Part shown: piece by piece, positions 21,911-28,627 of the stretch
Layout: each line of letters starts with the position of its first letter
How positions within the stretch are numbered: the stretch's first letter is position 1
NCBI GenBank assembly: GCA_903896535.1
Contig: CAITYE010000074.1
Location: 1-36,280, forward strand
Length of the DNA: 36,280 nucleotides
Source: an uncultured Paracraurococcus sp.
GTDB taxonomy: Bacteria; Pseudomonadota; Alphaproteobacteria; Acetobacterales; Acetobacteraceae
Direction of reading: 5' to 3'
Position numbers and translations under genes: made by a program
The notes under the pieces: generated by a model
What the model was told of the DNA's origin: nothing
The model's database searches: none
Seen by the model: only the letters and a program-made list of their open reading frames with translations

Positions 21911-22825
21911 TTGGCTTATGCGTTGCAGCAGCTGATCAACGGGGTCAGCCTCGGGATGATCTACGGGTTGATCGCCGTCGGCTACACCATGGTCTACGGC
22001 ATTATCGGTATGATCAACTTCGCCCATGGCGACATCTTCATGATCGGCGCCTTCGTCTCGCTGATCGCGCTGCTGCTGCTCTCGGCGGGCGGGCTGATGG
22101 AAGGCCCGGCGGCGATTCTGCTGGTGCTGGTCATCTCGGTTGCCATCACCGGCCTTTATGGCTGGGCGGTGGAACGCGTCGCCTACCGGCCACTGCGCGG
22201 CAGCTTCCGCCTGGCACCGCTGATCTCGGCGATCGGCATCTCGATCGTGCTGCAGAACTTCGTGCAGGTCGCCCAGGGCGCGCGGCCGAAGCCGTCTGAA
22301 GCCGTCATCTCCGGGGGGATCGAGCTGATGCGAGAGGGCGACTTCACCGTCCAACTGACTTATGTGCAGATCCTCATCATCGCGCTGACCCTGGCCGTGC
22401 TGGCGATCTTCACGGTGCTGGTCACCCGGACACGGCTCGGCCGCGCCATGCGGGCCTGCGAGCAGGACCGGCGGATGGCATCGCTCCTCGGGATCGATAC
22501 CGATCGCACCATCAGCCTGACCTTCGTCATCGGCGCCGCCCTGGCCTCGGTGGCAGGCACCATGTACCTCCTGCGCTATGGCGTGATCGATTTCTACATC
22601 GGCTTCCTCGCCGGCGTGAAAGCCTTCACCGCGGCGGTGCTGGGCGGCATCGGCTCGCTGCCCGGGGCGGTGCTCGGCGGCCTGCTGATCGGCCTGATCG
22701 AGACCTTCTGGTCAGCCTATTTCAGCGTCCAGTACAAGGATGTCGCGGCCTTCTCGATCCTGGTGATCACCCTGATCTTCCTGCCCACCGGCCTGCTCGG
22801 CCGGCAGGAGGTGGAGAAGGTATGA
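21911..22825 (+). CDS. livH: Branched-chain amino acid-type ABC transporter permease, LivH
   Basis: A 304-aa permease starting [41 protein letters not shown], the diagnostic LivH N-terminus, with eight or so membrane helices and the C-terminal [20 protein letters not shown] motif. It uses a TTG start (21911) with GGAG about 8 nt upstream; no ATG in frame would keep the conserved N-terminus. It is the first gene of livHMGFK. The upstream 128 bp contains TAGTTTACAACGCATAACG, a relatively AT-rich stretch that may hold the promoter. The true ligand may not be an amino acid. Confidence 0.93.
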
Positions 22826-24099
22826 TCGCCGCGCTGCGCGAAGCGGCGATTGCGGCCGCGGTCGCCTTCGGGCTCTTTGTCCTGCTGGTCGGGCTGAAGA
22901 CGGAGCCCGGATCGGCGGGCACCCTGATCCTGCGCGAGCGCTTCGGGGATGTCGCCCTGCTTTGCGGGCTGGTCTTCACGGGGCGGCTGCTGATGGCGCT
23001 GTGGCGGGCCCGCCGCGCCGCTGTGGAGCCGGGCGCGCCGACCCGCCTCGCCGCGCTGACCGGGCGGCTTGGTTCCTGGCTGGCACCGGCGCTGCTGGCG
23101 ACCGCGCTGCTGCTGCCCTGGCTGCCCGGCATCGGGCGGTCGGAGCTCGACCTCGGTATCCTCGTGCTGACCTATGTGATGCTCGGCTGGGGTCTCAACA
23201 TCGTCGTCGGCCTCGCCGGGCTGCTCGACCTCGGCTACGTCGCCTTCTACGCCGTCGGCGCCTATGCTTATGCGCTGCTGGCCCAGTATTTCGGGCTGTC
23301 GTTCTGGATCTGCCTGCCGCTGGCCGGCATCCTCGCGGCCTTCTGGGGCGTGCTGCTCGGCTTTCCCGTGCTGCGGCTGCGCGGCGATTATCTGGCGATC
23401 GTCACCCTGGCCTTCGGCGAGATCATCCGCGTCGTGCTGGTGAACTGGACCGAGCTGACGGGCGGCCCCAACGGCATCAGCGGCATCCCGCGCCCCAGCT
23501 TCTTCGGCCTGCCCTTCAGCATGGGGGGTGAGGAGGGCAGCTTCGCCGCCGTCTTCGGGCTGGAACCCTCGCCCAGCCATCGCGTGATCTTCCTCTACTA
23601 CCTCATCCTTTGCCTCGCCTTGCTGACCAACTGGGTGACCCTGCGGTTGCGCCGCCAGCCGCTCGGCCGCGCCTGGGAAGCAATGCGAGAGGACGAGATC
23701 GCATGCCGCGCGCTGGGCATCAACCTGACCGCGACCAAGCTTTCCGCCTTTGCGCTAGGCGCCATGTTCGGCGGCTTCGCCGGCGCCTTCTTTGCGACCC
23801 GGCAGGCCTTCATCAGCCCGGAAAGCTTCACCTTCATTGAAAGCGCCATCATCCTGGCGATCGTTGTCCTCGGCGGCCTCGGCAGCCAGCTCGGCGTCGC
23901 CATCGCCGCCATCGTCATGATCGGCGGCTTCGAGCTGTTCCGCGAGTTCGACGAATGGCGGATGCTGATCTTCGGCGGCGTCATGGTGGCGATCATGGTG
24001 CTGCGGCCGCGCGGCCTGGTCGGCACCCGCACCCCGACCATCGCGCTGGGAGAACGCCGGAAGATCAGCGCCGAGCTGGTGCAGGAGGGGCGGGGATGA
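22822..24099 (+). CDS. livM: Branched-chain amino acid-type ABC transporter permease, LivM
   Basis: A 425-aa permease overlapping livH by 4 bp. An N-terminal extension with two hydrophobic segments (about 1-60) precedes the conserved core: [63 protein letters not shown], and the late helix pair [19 protein letters not shown]. It ends with [20 protein letters not shown], a cytoplasmic tail. It pairs with LivH to form the channel. Confidence 0.94.
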
Positions 24100-24911
24100 G
24101 CCCGATCCTGGAACTACGCGGCGTCACCATGCGGTTCGGCGGGCTGACCGCGGTCAAGGACGTCTCCTTCGCCGCCGGCAAGGGCGAGATCACCGCCATC
24201 ATCGGCCCGAACGGCGCTGGCAAGACCACGCTGTTCAACTGCATCACCGGCTTCTACCGCCCGACCGAGGGCGAGGTGCTGCTGCACGGCGCGGCCGGGA
24301 CCACGCCCCTGCAGCGCCTGCCCGATCACCGCATCGCCCAGGCCGGCGTGGCCCGCACCTTTCAGAATATCCGCCTCTTTGCCGGCATGACCGCGCTGGA
24401 GAACCTGCTGATCGCGCAGCACAACCGGCTGATGGCGGCGACCGGCTTCGGCATCGGCGCCGTGCTTGGGCTCTCCCGCTATCCCGCGGCCGAACGGCAG
24501 GCAGTGGCGCAGGCCCGGCATTGGCTGGCGGCGACCGACCTGCTGGACCGGGCCGATGATCCCGCCGGGGCGCTGCCCTATGGCCAGCAGCGTCGGCTCG
24601 AAATCGCCCGCGCCATGTGCACGGACCCGCAGCTGCTCTGCCTGGACGAGCCGGCCGCCGGGCTTAATCCGCGCGAATCCGAAGCCCTGGCGGATCTGCT
24701 GCGGCGTATCCTGGCGGCCGGCACGGCGATCCTGCTGATCGAACACGACATGCATGTGGTGATGCGGATCAGCGACCGCGTCGTCGTCCTCGACCACGGC
24801 AGCATGATCGCCATTGGCACGCCGGCGGCTGTGCGGGCGGACCCGCGGGTGATCGCCGCCTATCTCGGCGAGGCGGATGACGAGGAAAGCGCGGCAGGGG
24901 CCGCGGCATGA
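24096..24911 (+). CDS. livG: Branched-chain amino acid-type ABC transporter ATPase, LivG
   Basis: A 271-aa ATPase: [14 protein letters not shown], Walker [11 protein letters not shown]-loop [17 protein letters not shown], signature-type [15 protein letters not shown], Walker [15 protein letters not shown]-loop [10 protein letters not shown]. The signature [13 protein letters not shown], with YGQ for SGG, is normal for LivG. The ATG at 24096 overlaps the livM stop (ATGA). An insert after [16 protein letters not shown] matches the usual LivG helical loop. Confidence 0.95.
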
Positions 24912-25633
24912 CCGCGCCGCTGCTCGAGATCGAAGGCCTCTCGGCGGGCTACGGCGCGGTACATGCTTTGAGCGATGTCTCGCTGACGGTCGGCCAAGGG
25001 GAGATCGTCACCCTGATCGGCGCCAACGGCGCCGGCAAATCAACCCTACTGATGTCGATCTGCGGCGATCCGCAGCCGCGCCAGGGCCGCATCCGCTTCG
25101 CGGGCGAGGATATCGCGGGGGAGGCGACGCACCGGATCATGCGCCGGGGCATCGCCCAGGCGCCGGAGGGGCGGCGCATTTTCCCGCGCATGACCGTCGC
25201 CGAGAATCTGATCATGGGCGCGGAAGCGCTGGGACAGCCAGCGACGGAGGCGCGCCTCGCGCAGATCTTTGCCCTCTTTCCGCGCCTCCAGGAAAGGCTG
25301 GCGCAGCGCGGCGGCACGCTTTCCGGCGGCGAACAGCAGATGCTGGCGATCGGCCGGGCGCTGATGTCGGCACCCCGCCTGCTATTGCTCGACGAGCCCT
25401 CGCTCGGCCTCGCCCCGCTGATCGTGAAGCAGATCTTCGACGCCATCCACCGCCTGAACGCCGAAACCGGGCTGAGTGTCCTGCTGGTGGAGCAGAACGC
25501 CTATCAGGCGCTGCGCCTCGCCCATCGTGGCTATGTGCTGGTCAATGGCCGGATCGCCATGGCCGGGACCGGGCGGGAGCTGCTGGCCCGGCCGGAAATC
25601 CGCGAGGCCTATCTGGGTGGCGGTCATGGCTGA
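24908..25633 (+). CDS. livF: Branched-chain amino acid-type ABC transporter ATPase, LivF
   Basis: A 241-aa ATPase with GYGAVHALSDVSL, Walker A GANGAGKST, APEGRRIFPRMTVAENL (the LivF hallmark), signature LSGGEQQMLAIGRALM, Walker B LLLLDEPSLGLAP and the LLVEQNAYQALRLAHRGYVL H-loop variant, in which Gln follows Glu as in other LivF proteins. It overlaps livG by 4 bp. Confidence 0.95.
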   Translation: MTAPLLEIEGLSAGYGAVHALSDVSLTVGQGEIVTLIGANGAGKSTLLMSICGDPQPRQGRIRFAGEDIAGEATHRIMRRGIAQAPEGRRIFPRMTVAENLIMGAEALGQPATEARLAQIFALFPRLQERLAQRGGTLSGGEQQMLAIGRALMSAPRLLLLDEPSLGLAPLIVKQIFDAIHRLNAETGLSVLLVEQNAYQALRLAHRGYVLVNGRIAMAGTGRELLARPEIREAYLGGGHG

Positions 25634-25668
25634 CAAGCCGACCGCCAATCCGGTAGCGTTGTGCCCAG

Positions 25669-25687
25669 GCCGGCGATCTTCGCCGGC
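25669..25687. promoter_or_regulatory. Intra-operon hairpin between livF and livK
   Basis: GCCGGCGA-TCT-TCGCCGGC is an 8-bp stem in the 78-bp livF-livK gap, 24 bp before the livK start. Hairpins at this place often protect or insulate the mRNA of the binding protein, which is needed in excess. That role is inferred. Confidence 0.5.
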
Positions 25688-25711
25688 GCCCTATACCGAG
25701 GAGAGACAGGG

Positions 25712-26830
25712 ATGCTGAATCGCAGAAGCGTGTTGCAGGCCGGAATCGCCCTGCCGATCGTGCTCACCCAGGCCGAGGCACTGGCCCAGGCCGGGGATAC
25801 CATCCGCGTCGCCTGCGCCGGGCCGATGACCAGCAGCAATGCCGCCGCCGGCGACCAGATGAAGATCGGCGCCATGCAGGCGATCGAGGATTTGAACGCC
25901 AAGGGCGGCGTGCTGGGCAAGAAGCTCGTCCTCGACGTGGCTGACGATGCCTGCGATCCCCGCCAGGCCGTCTCGGTCGCGAACCAGATCGCCGGGCGCA
26001 AGACGGTCTTCGTCGCCGGCCACTACTGCTCCGGCAGCTCGATCCCCGCCAGCAAGGTCTATGCGGAGGAAGGCGTGCTGCAGATGAGCCCCGCCTCCAC
26101 CAACCCGAAATTCACCGATGAGGGCAGCTGGAACACTTTCCGCGTCTGCGGCCGCGATGACCAGCAGGGCGCCATCGCCGGCGCCTATCTGGCCAAGCAG
26201 TTCAAGGGCCAGAAGATCGCCATCCTCCACGACAACTCGGCCTATGGCAAAGGCCTCGCCGACGAGACCAAGAAGGCGCTGAACAAGGCCGGCGTCACCG
26301 AGACGCTCTATTCCGCCTATACTGCGGGCGAGAAGGACTACAACGCCGTCGTCTCCCGTCTGAAGGGGGCCGGCATCCAGGTGATCTATCTCGGCGGCTA
26401 CTACACCGAAGCCGGGCTGATCCTGCGCCAGGCCAAGGAACAGGGAATGGCGGTAACCCTGGTCGGCGGCGATGCGCTGGTGACCAAGGATTTCTGGCAG
26501 ATCTCCGGCGCCGCCGGCGAGGGCACGCTGATGACCTTCAGCGCCGACCCGCGCAACCGGCCGCAGGCGAAGGAGCTCGTCGCCCGCTTCAAGGCGAAGA
26601 ACGTCGATCCCGAGGGCTATGTTCTCTACACCTATGCCGCCTTCCAGATCTGGGCGGCGGCGGCGACCAAAATCAAAAGCACCGACCCGAAGAAGGTCGC
26701 CGCCGAGCTCAAGGCGCATGGCCCCTGGCAGACCGTGCTCGGCCCGATCGGCTTCGACAAGAAGGGCGACGTCACCGTACCGGACTACGTCTTCTATGTC
26801 TGGAAGGCCGGCAACTACAGCCAGATCTAA
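25712..26830 (+). CDS. Branched-chain amino acid-type ABC transporter substrate-binding protein, LivK-like
   Basis: A 372-aa periplasmic protein of the Leu/Ile/Val-binding family. It has a signal with RRSVLQAGIALPIVLTQAEALAQA, then IRVACAGPMTSSNAAAGDQMKIGAMQAIEDLNAKGGVLGKKL, FVAGHYCSGSSIPASKVYAEEG, AILHDNSAYGKGLADETKKAL and EKDYNAVVSRLKGAGIQVIYLGGYYTEAG. GAGGAGAGACAGGG precedes the ATG at 25712. Here livK comes last rather than first. Ligand identity is open, since many such systems in catabolic islands carry aromatic acids or amides. Confidence 0.93.
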   Translation: MLNRRSVLQAGIALPIVLTQAEALAQAGDTIRVACAGPMTSSNAAAGDQMKIGAMQAIEDLNAKGGVLGKKLVLDVADDACDPRQAVSVANQIAGRKTVFVAGHYCSGSSIPASKVYAEEGVLQMSPASTNPKFTDEGSWNTFRVCGRDDQQGAIAGAYLAKQFKGQKIAILHDNSAYGKGLADETKKALNKAGVTETLYSAYTAGEKDYNAVVSRLKGAGIQVIYLGGYYTEAGLILRQAKEQGMAVTLVGGDALVTKDFWQISGAAGEGTLMTFSADPRNRPQAKELVARFKAKNVDPEGYVLYTYAAFQIWAAAATKIKSTDPKKVAAELKAHGPWQTVLGPIGFDKKGDVTVPDYVFYVWKAGNYSQI

Positions 26831-26884
26831 AAGGCTTGCGGCCGGCCGGCATTTCGCGCGAGACTCCGGGATCCGCAACCAACC

Positions 26885-26900
26885 GAAAGGAGGTGATCCA
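26885..26900 (+). promoter_or_regulatory. Near-complete anti-16S Shine-Dalgarno of the leader ORF
   Basis: GAAAGGAGGTGATCCAG (26885-26901) is complementary to the 3' end of alphaproteobacterial 16S rRNA (…CUGGAUCACCUCCUUUC) over 17 nt, far longer than any other ribosome site here. GGAGG is 7 nt from the GTG. GGATC at 26869-26873 can pair with GATCC at 26895-26899 and would put the site in a loop. Confidence 0.75.
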
Positions 26901-26978
26901 GTGTCTCATTGCTCTATGCCGCCTGCCCCGCCTGCAGCCTGGATCCTCGTTTCCGCCAGCGTGGAAACGGCGCTCTGA
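26901..26978 (+). CDS. 25-codon leader ORF upstream of the sulfatase gene
   Basis: GTG 26901 to TGA 26976-26978 encodes 25 residues beginning MSHCSMPPAPP, then AAWILVSASVETAL. It is too short for the track as a gene of its own, but its ribosome site is the best in the window. Its codons contain a CGTTTCC-8-GGAAACG hairpin (26948-26969), and a stronger hairpin follows before the sulfatase. The arrangement is that of a regulatory leader peptide (attenuator or translation sensor) rather than a functional product. It has one Cys and four Pro codons; which signal it reads, if any, is not visible. Confidence 0.6.
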   Translation: MSHCSMPPAPPAAWILVSASVETAL

Positions 26979-27011
26979 GCTTCGCCAAGGCCGGCAACGG
27001 CTGACGCAATG

Positions 27012-27043
27012 GGAAGGCCTCGGCGGCGACGCCGGGGCCTTCC
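27012..27043 (+). promoter_or_regulatory. 14-bp GNRA-loop hairpin in the sulfatase leader
   Basis: GGAAGGCCTCGGCG-GCGA-CGCCGGGGCCTTCC pairs over 14 bp (one T-G wobble) with a GCGA tetraloop. It ends 21 nt before the sulfatase ATG, just ahead of its ribosome site GGGGAGGAG. It lacks a U-tract. It could be an attenuator paired with the leader ORF, or a livK terminator. Confidence 0.65.
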
Positions 27044-27064
27044 GCAATTCCGGGGAGGAGCGGC

Positions 27065-28627
27065 ATGGCCATCCGCAACGTGCTTTTCGTCATGTGCGAC
27101 CAGCTGCGCTGGGACCATCTGGGCTGCGCCGGCCACCCCTGGCTGCGTACGCCCAATATCGATGCGCTGGCCCGGCGCGGCCTGCGCTTCCCCAACACCT
27201 TCGTGCAATCGGGCATCTGCGGCCCGTCCCGCATGTCCTTCTACACCGGCCGCTACGTCTCCTCGCACGGCGCCACGCATAACCGCGTGCCGCTTTCGGT
27301 GGGGGAGGTGACGCTGGGCTATCTGCTGCGGGAGGCCGGGCGCCGCCTCGTGCTCTGCGGCAAGACGCATGTGCTGCCCGATGCCCGCGGCATGCGCCGC
27401 CTCGCCCTCGATGGCCAGAACGACCTTGCCGCGCTGCTGCGGGAAGGCTGGTTCGAGCTGGTGGACCGGCATGATGGCCACCACGGCGACCCCGACAGCG
27501 CCTATGCCGATTGGCTGCGCGCGCAGGGCTACAACAGCCGCGACCCCTGGACCGATTGGGTGATCGCGGTGGATGGGCCGGACGGCCCGCGCTCAGGCTG
27601 GCAGATGCGCAACGCGCGGCTGCCGGCGCGCGTCAAGGAAGCGCATAGCGAGACCGCCTATACCACCGACCGCGCCATCGATTTCCTGCGCGCCCAGGGC
27701 GATGCACCCTGGGTGCTGCATCTCTCCTATGTGAAGCCGCATTGGCCCTATATCGCGCCGGCGCCCTACCACGCGATGTACACGCCCGAGCAATGCCTGC
27801 CCGTGCAGCGCCATCCGGAGGAGCGGAGCGCGGCCGCGCATCCCATGTTCCGCGCCTGGCAGGACGAGGAGGTCGCGGTGAACTTCCAGCGCGACGAGAC
27901 CATCGCCACCGTCCGGCCGACCTATCAGGGCCTGATCACCCAGGTGGACGACCATCTTGGCCGGGTTTGGGAGGAGATGGAGCGGCTCGGCCGCTGGCGC
28001 GACACGCTGGTGATCTTCACCGCCGATCACGGCGATTATCTCGGCGATCACTGGCTGGGCGAGAAGGAGCTGTTCCACGACTGCGTGCAGCGCGTGCCCT
28101 GCCTGCTTTACGACCCAACGGCGGCCGCGGATGCGACCCGCGGGACCACCGATCCGCGGCTGGTCGAGGCGATCGACTGCGTGCCGACCATCCTGGAGGC
28201 CCTGGGAGCCGATCCGGCGCGGCATGTGGTCGAAGGCCGCTCCCTGCTGCCGCTGGCGCGCGGCGAGGCCGTGGAGGATTGGCGCGAGGCCGCCTTCAGC
28301 GAGCTGGACTGGACCTTTCGCGGTGCCCGCCGCCGGCTTGGCCACCCCACCGGGCAGCACATGGCCTGGATGGTGCGGACCGCGCGCTGGAAATACGTCC
28401 ACTGGACCGGCGGCTACCGGCCACAGCTCTTTGACCTGCAGCAGGACCCGCAGGAGTTCCACGATCTCGGCGCCGACGGCACCCTGGTCGGGGTGCGCGA
28501 TGCCATGCGGCACCGGCTGCTCGGCTGGTTCACCCGCCTGAAATCACGCACCACCATCACGTGGGAGGAGGCGGAGCAGCGCACCGACAGCCACAAGAAG
28601 GCGGGCGTTTTTCTAGGGGAATGGTAG
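27065..28627 (+). CDS. Sulfatase family hydrolase, phosphonate monoester hydrolase/arylsulfatase-like
   Basis: A 520-aa alkaline-phosphatase-superfamily enzyme. The N-terminal metal site is NVLFVMCDQLRWDHLG. The formylglycine motif CGPSR (Cys52-Arg56) is the Cys-type CxPSR sequence modified by a formylglycine-generating enzyme. YVKPHWPYIAPAPYHAMY and the second metal site FTADHGDYLGDHWLGEKE resemble Rhizobium/Burkholderia PMH. There is no signal peptide, so a cytoplasmic location is likely, as for PMH. Substrates could be sulfate monoesters, phosphodiesters or phosphonate monoesters; the sequence does not decide. It is probably read from its own leader or from the liv operon. Confidence 0.88.
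   Translation: MAIRNVLFVMCDQLRWDHLGCAGHPWLRTPNIDALARRGLRFPNTFVQSGICGPSRMSFYTGRYVSSHGATHNRVPLSVGEVTLGYLLREAGRRLVLCGKTHVLPDARGMRRLALDGQNDLAALLREGWFELVDRHDGHHGDPDSAYADWLRAQGYNSRDPWTDWVIAVDGPDGPRSGWQMRNARLPARVKEAHSETAYTTDRAIDFLRAQGDAPWVLHLSYVKPHWPYIAPAPYHAMYTPEQCLPVQRHPEERSAAAHPMFRAWQDEEVAVNFQRDETIATVRPTYQGLITQVDDHLGRVWEEMERLGRWRDTLVIFTADHGDYLGDHWLGEKELFHDCVQRVPCLLYDPTAAADATRGTTDPRLVEAIDCVPTILEALGADPARHVVEGRSLLPLARGEAVEDWREAAFSELDWTFRGARRRLGHPTGQHMAWMVRTARWKYVHWTGGYRPQLFDLQQDPQEFHDLGADGTLVGVRDAMRHRLLGWFTRLKSRTTITWEEAEQRTDSHKKAGVFLGEW

Follow-up and report, generated by a model that had tools for sequence, protein, structure and literature searches.

The window analysed here, a 36,280-nucleotide stretch from an uncultured Paracraurococcus sp. 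(Acetobacteraceae), carries on its forward strand a compact element that combines a promoter-like sequence, an unusually long Shine-Dalgarno (SD) site, a mini-ORF and a terminator-like hairpin (Table 1). Directly upstream, at 21911-26830, lies a branched-chain-type amino-acid ABC transporter cluster (two permeases, two ATPases and a periplasmic binding protein); a periplasmic-binding-protein gene upstream of the RNA is common to many Acetobacteraceae loci and represents ordinary synteny. Downstream, a sulfatase gene (PF00884) begins with an ATG at 27065 on the same strand, 21 nt past the hairpin. A preliminary description of this DNA had taken the element for a translation-coupled leader of the sulfatase, perhaps responsive to a sulfur-related signal and of no known class.

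Table 1. Features of the element, with positions in the window and the evidence for each.
Feature	Position	Strand	Basis
Promoter-like sequence: -35 TTGCGG (26836-26841), -10 GAGACT (26860-26865)	26836..26865	+	Similar arrangement in most of 118 loci
Match to Rfam RF01867 (CC2171), whole model 1-159	26877..27041	+	76.5 bits against a gathering threshold of 75; E 3.6e-14
Full-length SD site, 17 nt complementary to the 16S 3' end	26885..26901	+	16S match; exact 15-mer found nowhere else in the genome
Mini-ORF opened by GTG and closed by TGA, 25 codons (VSHCSMPPAPPAAWILVSASVETAL)	26901..26978	+	Start spacing and frame-specific stop across 172 loci
P1, 5' strand, CATTGC, codons 3-4	26907..26912	+	Pairs with 27006-27011; 92% of cells paired
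16S-tail mimic (anti-SD strand) within the ORF, CTGGATCCTCGTTT	26939..26952	+	RNAalifold helix, 118 loci; permutation test
In-ORF hairpin just 3' of the mimic strand (CGTTTCC...GGAAACG)	26948..26969	+	Minimum-energy fold
P1, 3' strand, GCAATG, immediately before the terminator-like hairpin	27006..27011	+	Pairing in 118 loci; distant relatives arranged alike
Terminator-like hairpin with 14 bp, a GCGA loop and a weak T-run (GCAATTCC)	27012..27043	+	Similar hairpin at the same place in relatives

The class that the preliminary description could not name is Rfam RF01867, whose model is matched over 159 of 159 positions; the score passes the gathering threshold by a small margin, with the conserved 5' core and the long-range helix P1 intact. 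Both structural hallmarks of the family, the long-range CAUUGUC/GACAAUG helix and a terminal hairpin, are present. The source genome contains one RF01867 copy, the usual number, and two copies of the element were seen in each of two others (G211 and G605). At E values up to 0.001, 57 of 200 genomes from the order had an RF01867 match, as had 85 of 385 from the class. A simple pattern made of the full-length site, the start codon and TC occurred in 90 of 200 genomes from the family and in 79 of 385 from the class; its reversed control matched nowhere. A pattern scan of named genomes gave loci in Roseomonas, Bosea, Methylobacterium, Microvirga, Brevundimonas, Caulobacter, Phenylobacterium, Rhodopseudomonas and others, and most of 52 further class-wide loci, chosen as new to the sample, had a short ORF and a terminator-like hairpin. 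The 5' core was also seen on large plasmids or chromids of Azospirillum, Methylobacterium and Skermanella (H31-H37, H41-H50), and a phage search with the RNA returned one short, chance-like match only. In Mesorhizobium huakuii, RNA-seq has picked up an RF01867 RNA of about 215 nt (MH_s33; PMC5596092). The Rfam 15 paper added one covarying pair to the family. In the literature that we searched, we found no description of an ORF, of 16S complementarity or of a crossing helix in CC2171.

No part of the element is better conserved than its complementarity to the whole 16S tail. GAAAGGAGGTGATCCAG, at 26885-26901 (+), is the exact complement over 17 nt of CTGGATCACCTCCTTTC, the alphaproteobacterial 16S 3' end (a sequence taken from plasmid-borne alphaproteobacterial copies, with 100% matches on many, the source assembly carrying no 16S gene of its own), and its last matched base is the G of the GTG start. 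The match and its spacing to a GTG opening a 25-codon ORF are as the preliminary description had them, with 7 nt separating GGAGG (26889-26893) from the GTG (26901). The 4.5-Mb genome contains GAAAGGAGGTGATCC a single time, no other place comes within one mismatch of it, and a reversed control of GAAAGGAGGTGATCC had zero matches in the same genome, which argues that the site is not a product of chance. For comparison, SD sites in Caulobacter are described at about a quarter of genes (PMC4117421). A looser pattern, applied to 115 genomes, identified 22 full-length sites with an NTG at the right distance; 20 of these were already among the elements described here and the other two are RF01867 matches. 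Since all 22 sites fall in such elements, the full-length site appears to be close to exclusive to this kind of element, at least in this sample of 115 genomes.

The ORF that follows this site is held in place across relatives. In all 172 loci compared, the start codon follows the first G of GGAGGTG at a distance of exactly 12 nt (GTG in 164, ATG in 8), a ratio that is biased because many loci were retrieved by a GTG-containing pattern; ATG starts also occur in loci retrieved by RF01867, and many appear with the looser class-wide pattern. The first stop in this frame falls at codon 19-26 in 167 of 172 loci, compared with 13 and 20 of 172 for the other two frames, and never before codon 14. All three stop codons are used (TGA in 95 loci, TAA in 44 and TAG in 33), the TGA of the window occupying 26976-26978. 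Entropy is about equal at codon positions 1, 2 and 3 among 118 non-redundant loci, suggesting that the reading frame is kept but the peptide is not. On this comparison the peptide sequence is barely conserved, unlike the start, frame and stop. In Caulobacter, a 2014 study by Schrader describes two earlier-predicted ncRNAs as translated (PMC4117421).

RNA structure is conserved as well. RNAalifold, run unguided on a sequence-only alignment of the 118 non-redundant loci, paired the ribosome site and start codon with CYGGAUC..UCGCC in codons 13-17, a strand that mimics the 16S tail; in the window, CTGGATC (26939-26945) pairs with GATCCAG (26895-26901). In this SD/mimic helix 88.8% of cells are paired, against at most 64.5% in slid versions, and 0 of 1000 permutations reached as high a value. 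Because the 16S match fixes the SD side, this support is mostly one-sided (C or U opposite a fixed G). The column outside the 16S constraint shows A-U, G-C, U-A and C-G pairs and is the sole fully compensated one. Some compensatory states belong to a shared clade. In a set of 51 more distant loci, masking of the SD was weakly above shuffles (17.0 vs 14.8). The mimic strand begins at ORF nucleotide 35-38 in most loci, and the stop typically lies 15-24 nt beyond its end. The GATCC/GGATC-type masking proposed earlier is thus conserved in kind, but its partner is the in-ORF CTGGATC rather than the upstream GGATC (26869-26873), a candidate that we rejected as lying at or before the inferred transcript start. 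In L003, L013, L017 and similar Roseomonas-type loci, a second, anti-SD-like copy of CGGGTCACC follows the stop codon and could possibly act as an additional mask of the ribosome site.

P1 connects codons 3-5 (CAUUGUC) with the GACAAUG arm just 5' of the terminator, and again 0 of 1000 permutations paired as well. Its variable column in the 118-locus alignment contains T-A (96), C-G (11), A-T (2) and G-C (1), and the columns of P1 and of the SD/mimic helix rank among the strongest covarying pairs outside the terminator. In the 51 more distant loci, where the arm sequences are unrelated (for example GTGAT/ATCAC, GTGAG/CTCAC, CATGAAT/ATTCATG and CATGGTT/GACCATG), P1 scored 13.06 on average compared with 11.35 +- 0.36 for 500 permutations (maximum 12.3). 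The two helices cross without sharing a base, their 5' strands one nucleotide apart, and must therefore form either a pseudoknot or two alternating folds. When pseudoknots are disallowed, nearest-neighbour folding makes P1 on average about 8 kcal/mol more favourable than the SD/mimic helix, whose mean probability is then 0.08, such that masking in the finished RNA would need a pseudoknot or co-transcriptional folding. Other pairings fared less well. An extension of P1 by CCGCGG/CCGCGG was dropped, with at most 57% of cells paired. A local start hairpin, CAGUG-UCU-CAUUG, would account for joint A-to-G and U-to-C changes in Roseomonas-type loci. Other lineages disrupt it (CATAG forms, L034) yet keep both long-range helices. 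The hairpin inside the ORF and the 14-bp GNRA hairpin behind it are both present as first described, although for the former we detected no clear or conserved covariation among the loci compared. Relatives thus keep the short ORF and covarying stems, the opposite of what the preliminary description had expected to see if it was wrong.

The element also appears to carry its own transcription signals. In most of the 118 non-redundant loci, a promoter-like TTG/-10 pair precedes the ribosome site by about 16-22 nt, and in the window it would place the transcript start at about 26871-26873. The window's promoter-like sequence is too weak for a strict consensus scan, and its hairpin, which in relatives often has more T, fails a strict terminator scan; given these weaknesses, read-through into the sulfatase is possible in the source genome. 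By a crude gene call over the 172 loci, the next downstream gene runs opposite to the RNA in 86 and parallel to it in 59. Neighbours are unconserved, with no constant same-strand downstream gene or pathway of the kind that marks a cis-acting leader, riboswitch or attenuator, and only 10 of 172 loci, all from Acetobacteraceae, have an orthologue of the window sulfatase downstream. Judged by this context, the element is a stand-alone small RNA and not a switch of the adjoining sulfatase.

We therefore favour, with a probability of roughly 0.6, a reading in which the element is a stand-alone, 30S-gated mini-mRNA of the RF01867 family, of the dual-function type, with its own promoter and hairpin end. 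The stand-alone and ORF parts of this reading merit higher confidence than the whole, and the 30S gate lower. Family membership, the fixed start and stop, both helices and the stand-alone context draw support from comparison among loci; translation, strand displacement by the 30S subunit, the pseudoknot, re-masking and a regulatory output of the RNA or peptide are predictions of the model. In the RNA, the ribosome site would be covered by the copy of the 16S tail in codons 13-17, and P1 would tie codons 3-5 to the pre-terminator arm, with the 5' end adopting a pseudoknot or switching between two folds. A free 30S subunit could dock on the unpaired 5' GAAAGG and displace the mimic strand base by base, upon which translation of about 20-26 codons would begin and the translating ribosome would open both helices. 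After its passage the mimic could mask the site again. Re-masking after each passage is conceivable since the stop, 15-24 nt past the mimic, lies roughly where a terminating ribosome would release that strand. Output might then come via RNA stability or exposure, ribosome binding, or the peptide. A broader version we hold to be speculative and well short of even odds: the element would be a class-wide alphaproteobacterial device that reads free 30S subunits, or accessible 16S tails, with the tail and its internal copy competing for one strand, translation resetting the fold and the peptide sequence irrelevant, in a family wider than RF01867 for which the full-length site is reserved almost exclusively.

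Among the other readings, one in which the peptide is the functional product and the RNA merely its small mRNA is unlikely but deserves some weight. The conserved frame, start and stop are what it predicts, and an N-terminal MSH(C/R/S) and a TW-type motif recur. Close pairs of loci differ at 274 third codon positions compared with 161 and 118 at the other two, a count that the identity filter biases, and the even entropy of the three positions in the 118 loci points the other way. Moreover, the recurring residues coincide with paired strands and change where pairing is kept (R replaces W in the mimic, and R or S replaces C at codon 4), and no mini-ORF peptide matched a Pfam or NCBIfam family above cut-off. 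Some distant members (L257, L258 and L209) have the full-length site and start followed by 55-56-codon ORFs with signal-peptide-like N-termini, which suits the peptide reading; in some lineages the 5' module may drive a small exported protein as well. Elsewhere in the class, SEP1 of Sinorhizobium meliloti, 23 aa long, has the top translation efficiency among unannotated sORFs there (PMC10117765) and is a candidate relative of the RF01867-type family.

If the RNA were a decoy that holds ribosomes by binding 16S tails, its translation being incidental, the prominence of the 16S complementarity and the apparent confinement of all 22 full-length sites to such short elements would be readily understood. 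A conserved in-frame stop and a masking strand would however be needless, and at one copy per genome, the usual number, the RNA could hardly titrate thousands of ribosomes without very high expression; we consider this reading improbable. Still less probable is an ordinary non-coding antisense sRNA with a fortuitous ORF and ribosome site, as Rfam files CC2171. Its cataloguing as an sRNA from Caulobacter and its own promoter-like and terminator-like sequences agree with this, but the frame-specific stop and exact start spacing do not, and strong conservation falls on the bases of a translation start, no further conserved unpaired seed being seen. Context leaves the least room, and very little of it, for the translation-coupled or attenuation leader of the sulfatase that was first proposed. 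The short distance to the same-strand gene, the weak T-run and a gene order kept in a few Acetobacteraceae speak for such a leader; against it, the orthologue is absent downstream of most loci and the RNA persists beside unrelated genes on either strand. The RNA is conserved in relatives, as the leader idea anticipated, but it does not travel with the sulfatase, and neither that role nor the sulfur signal is supported.

The mini-mRNA that we favour shares features with several known systems. RF01867 itself is matched as a whole, and the Rfam structure includes P1 and the terminator hairpin; the family is filed as non-coding, however, and its model contains neither the ORF nor the 16S complementarity nor the SD/mimic helix crossing P1. 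The dual-function sRNAs or structured small mRNAs RNAIII-hld, SgrS-sgrT, Pos19 and rnTrpL are short, independently transcribed, structured RNAs with a short ORF. The window element resembles this group, but differs in having an unconserved peptide, a ribosome site complementary to the 16S tail over its full length, and a mask that resembles that tail. hok-type mRNAs fold their 3' end back onto the beginning of the RNA and hide a ribosome site in local structure. The window element would likewise have a 3' fold-back and a structurally hidden ribosome site, yet a conserved hydrophobic segment of the kind expected of a type I toxin was sought in its variable peptides and none was found. Extended SD sites in Staphylococcus aureus, where 16S pairing beyond the canonical core helps define the start codon (PMC13009471), offer a further parallel, although those add only a few extra pairs whereas here a stretch of 17 nt that takes in the start codon's first base would pair, in an RNA predicted to mask itself.

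Altogether, the conserved parts of the element suggest a tiny messenger that hides the strongest possible ribosome site behind a copy of the 16S tail. What is new here is the mini-mRNA behaviour that we propose, the SD/mimic helix, its crossing with P1 and the weak conservation of the peptide. The combination is unusual: one full-length anti-16S site per genome, a mask that imitates the 16S tail, and an ORF kept in length and frame but not in sequence. Through it, a catalogued sRNA family would become a testable translation device, and it cautions that some Rfam families filed as non-coding may be mini-mRNAs. If the gate is real, it would provide a direct handle on how alphaproteobacteria, which use SD sites sparingly, might sense or buffer free 30S subunits.
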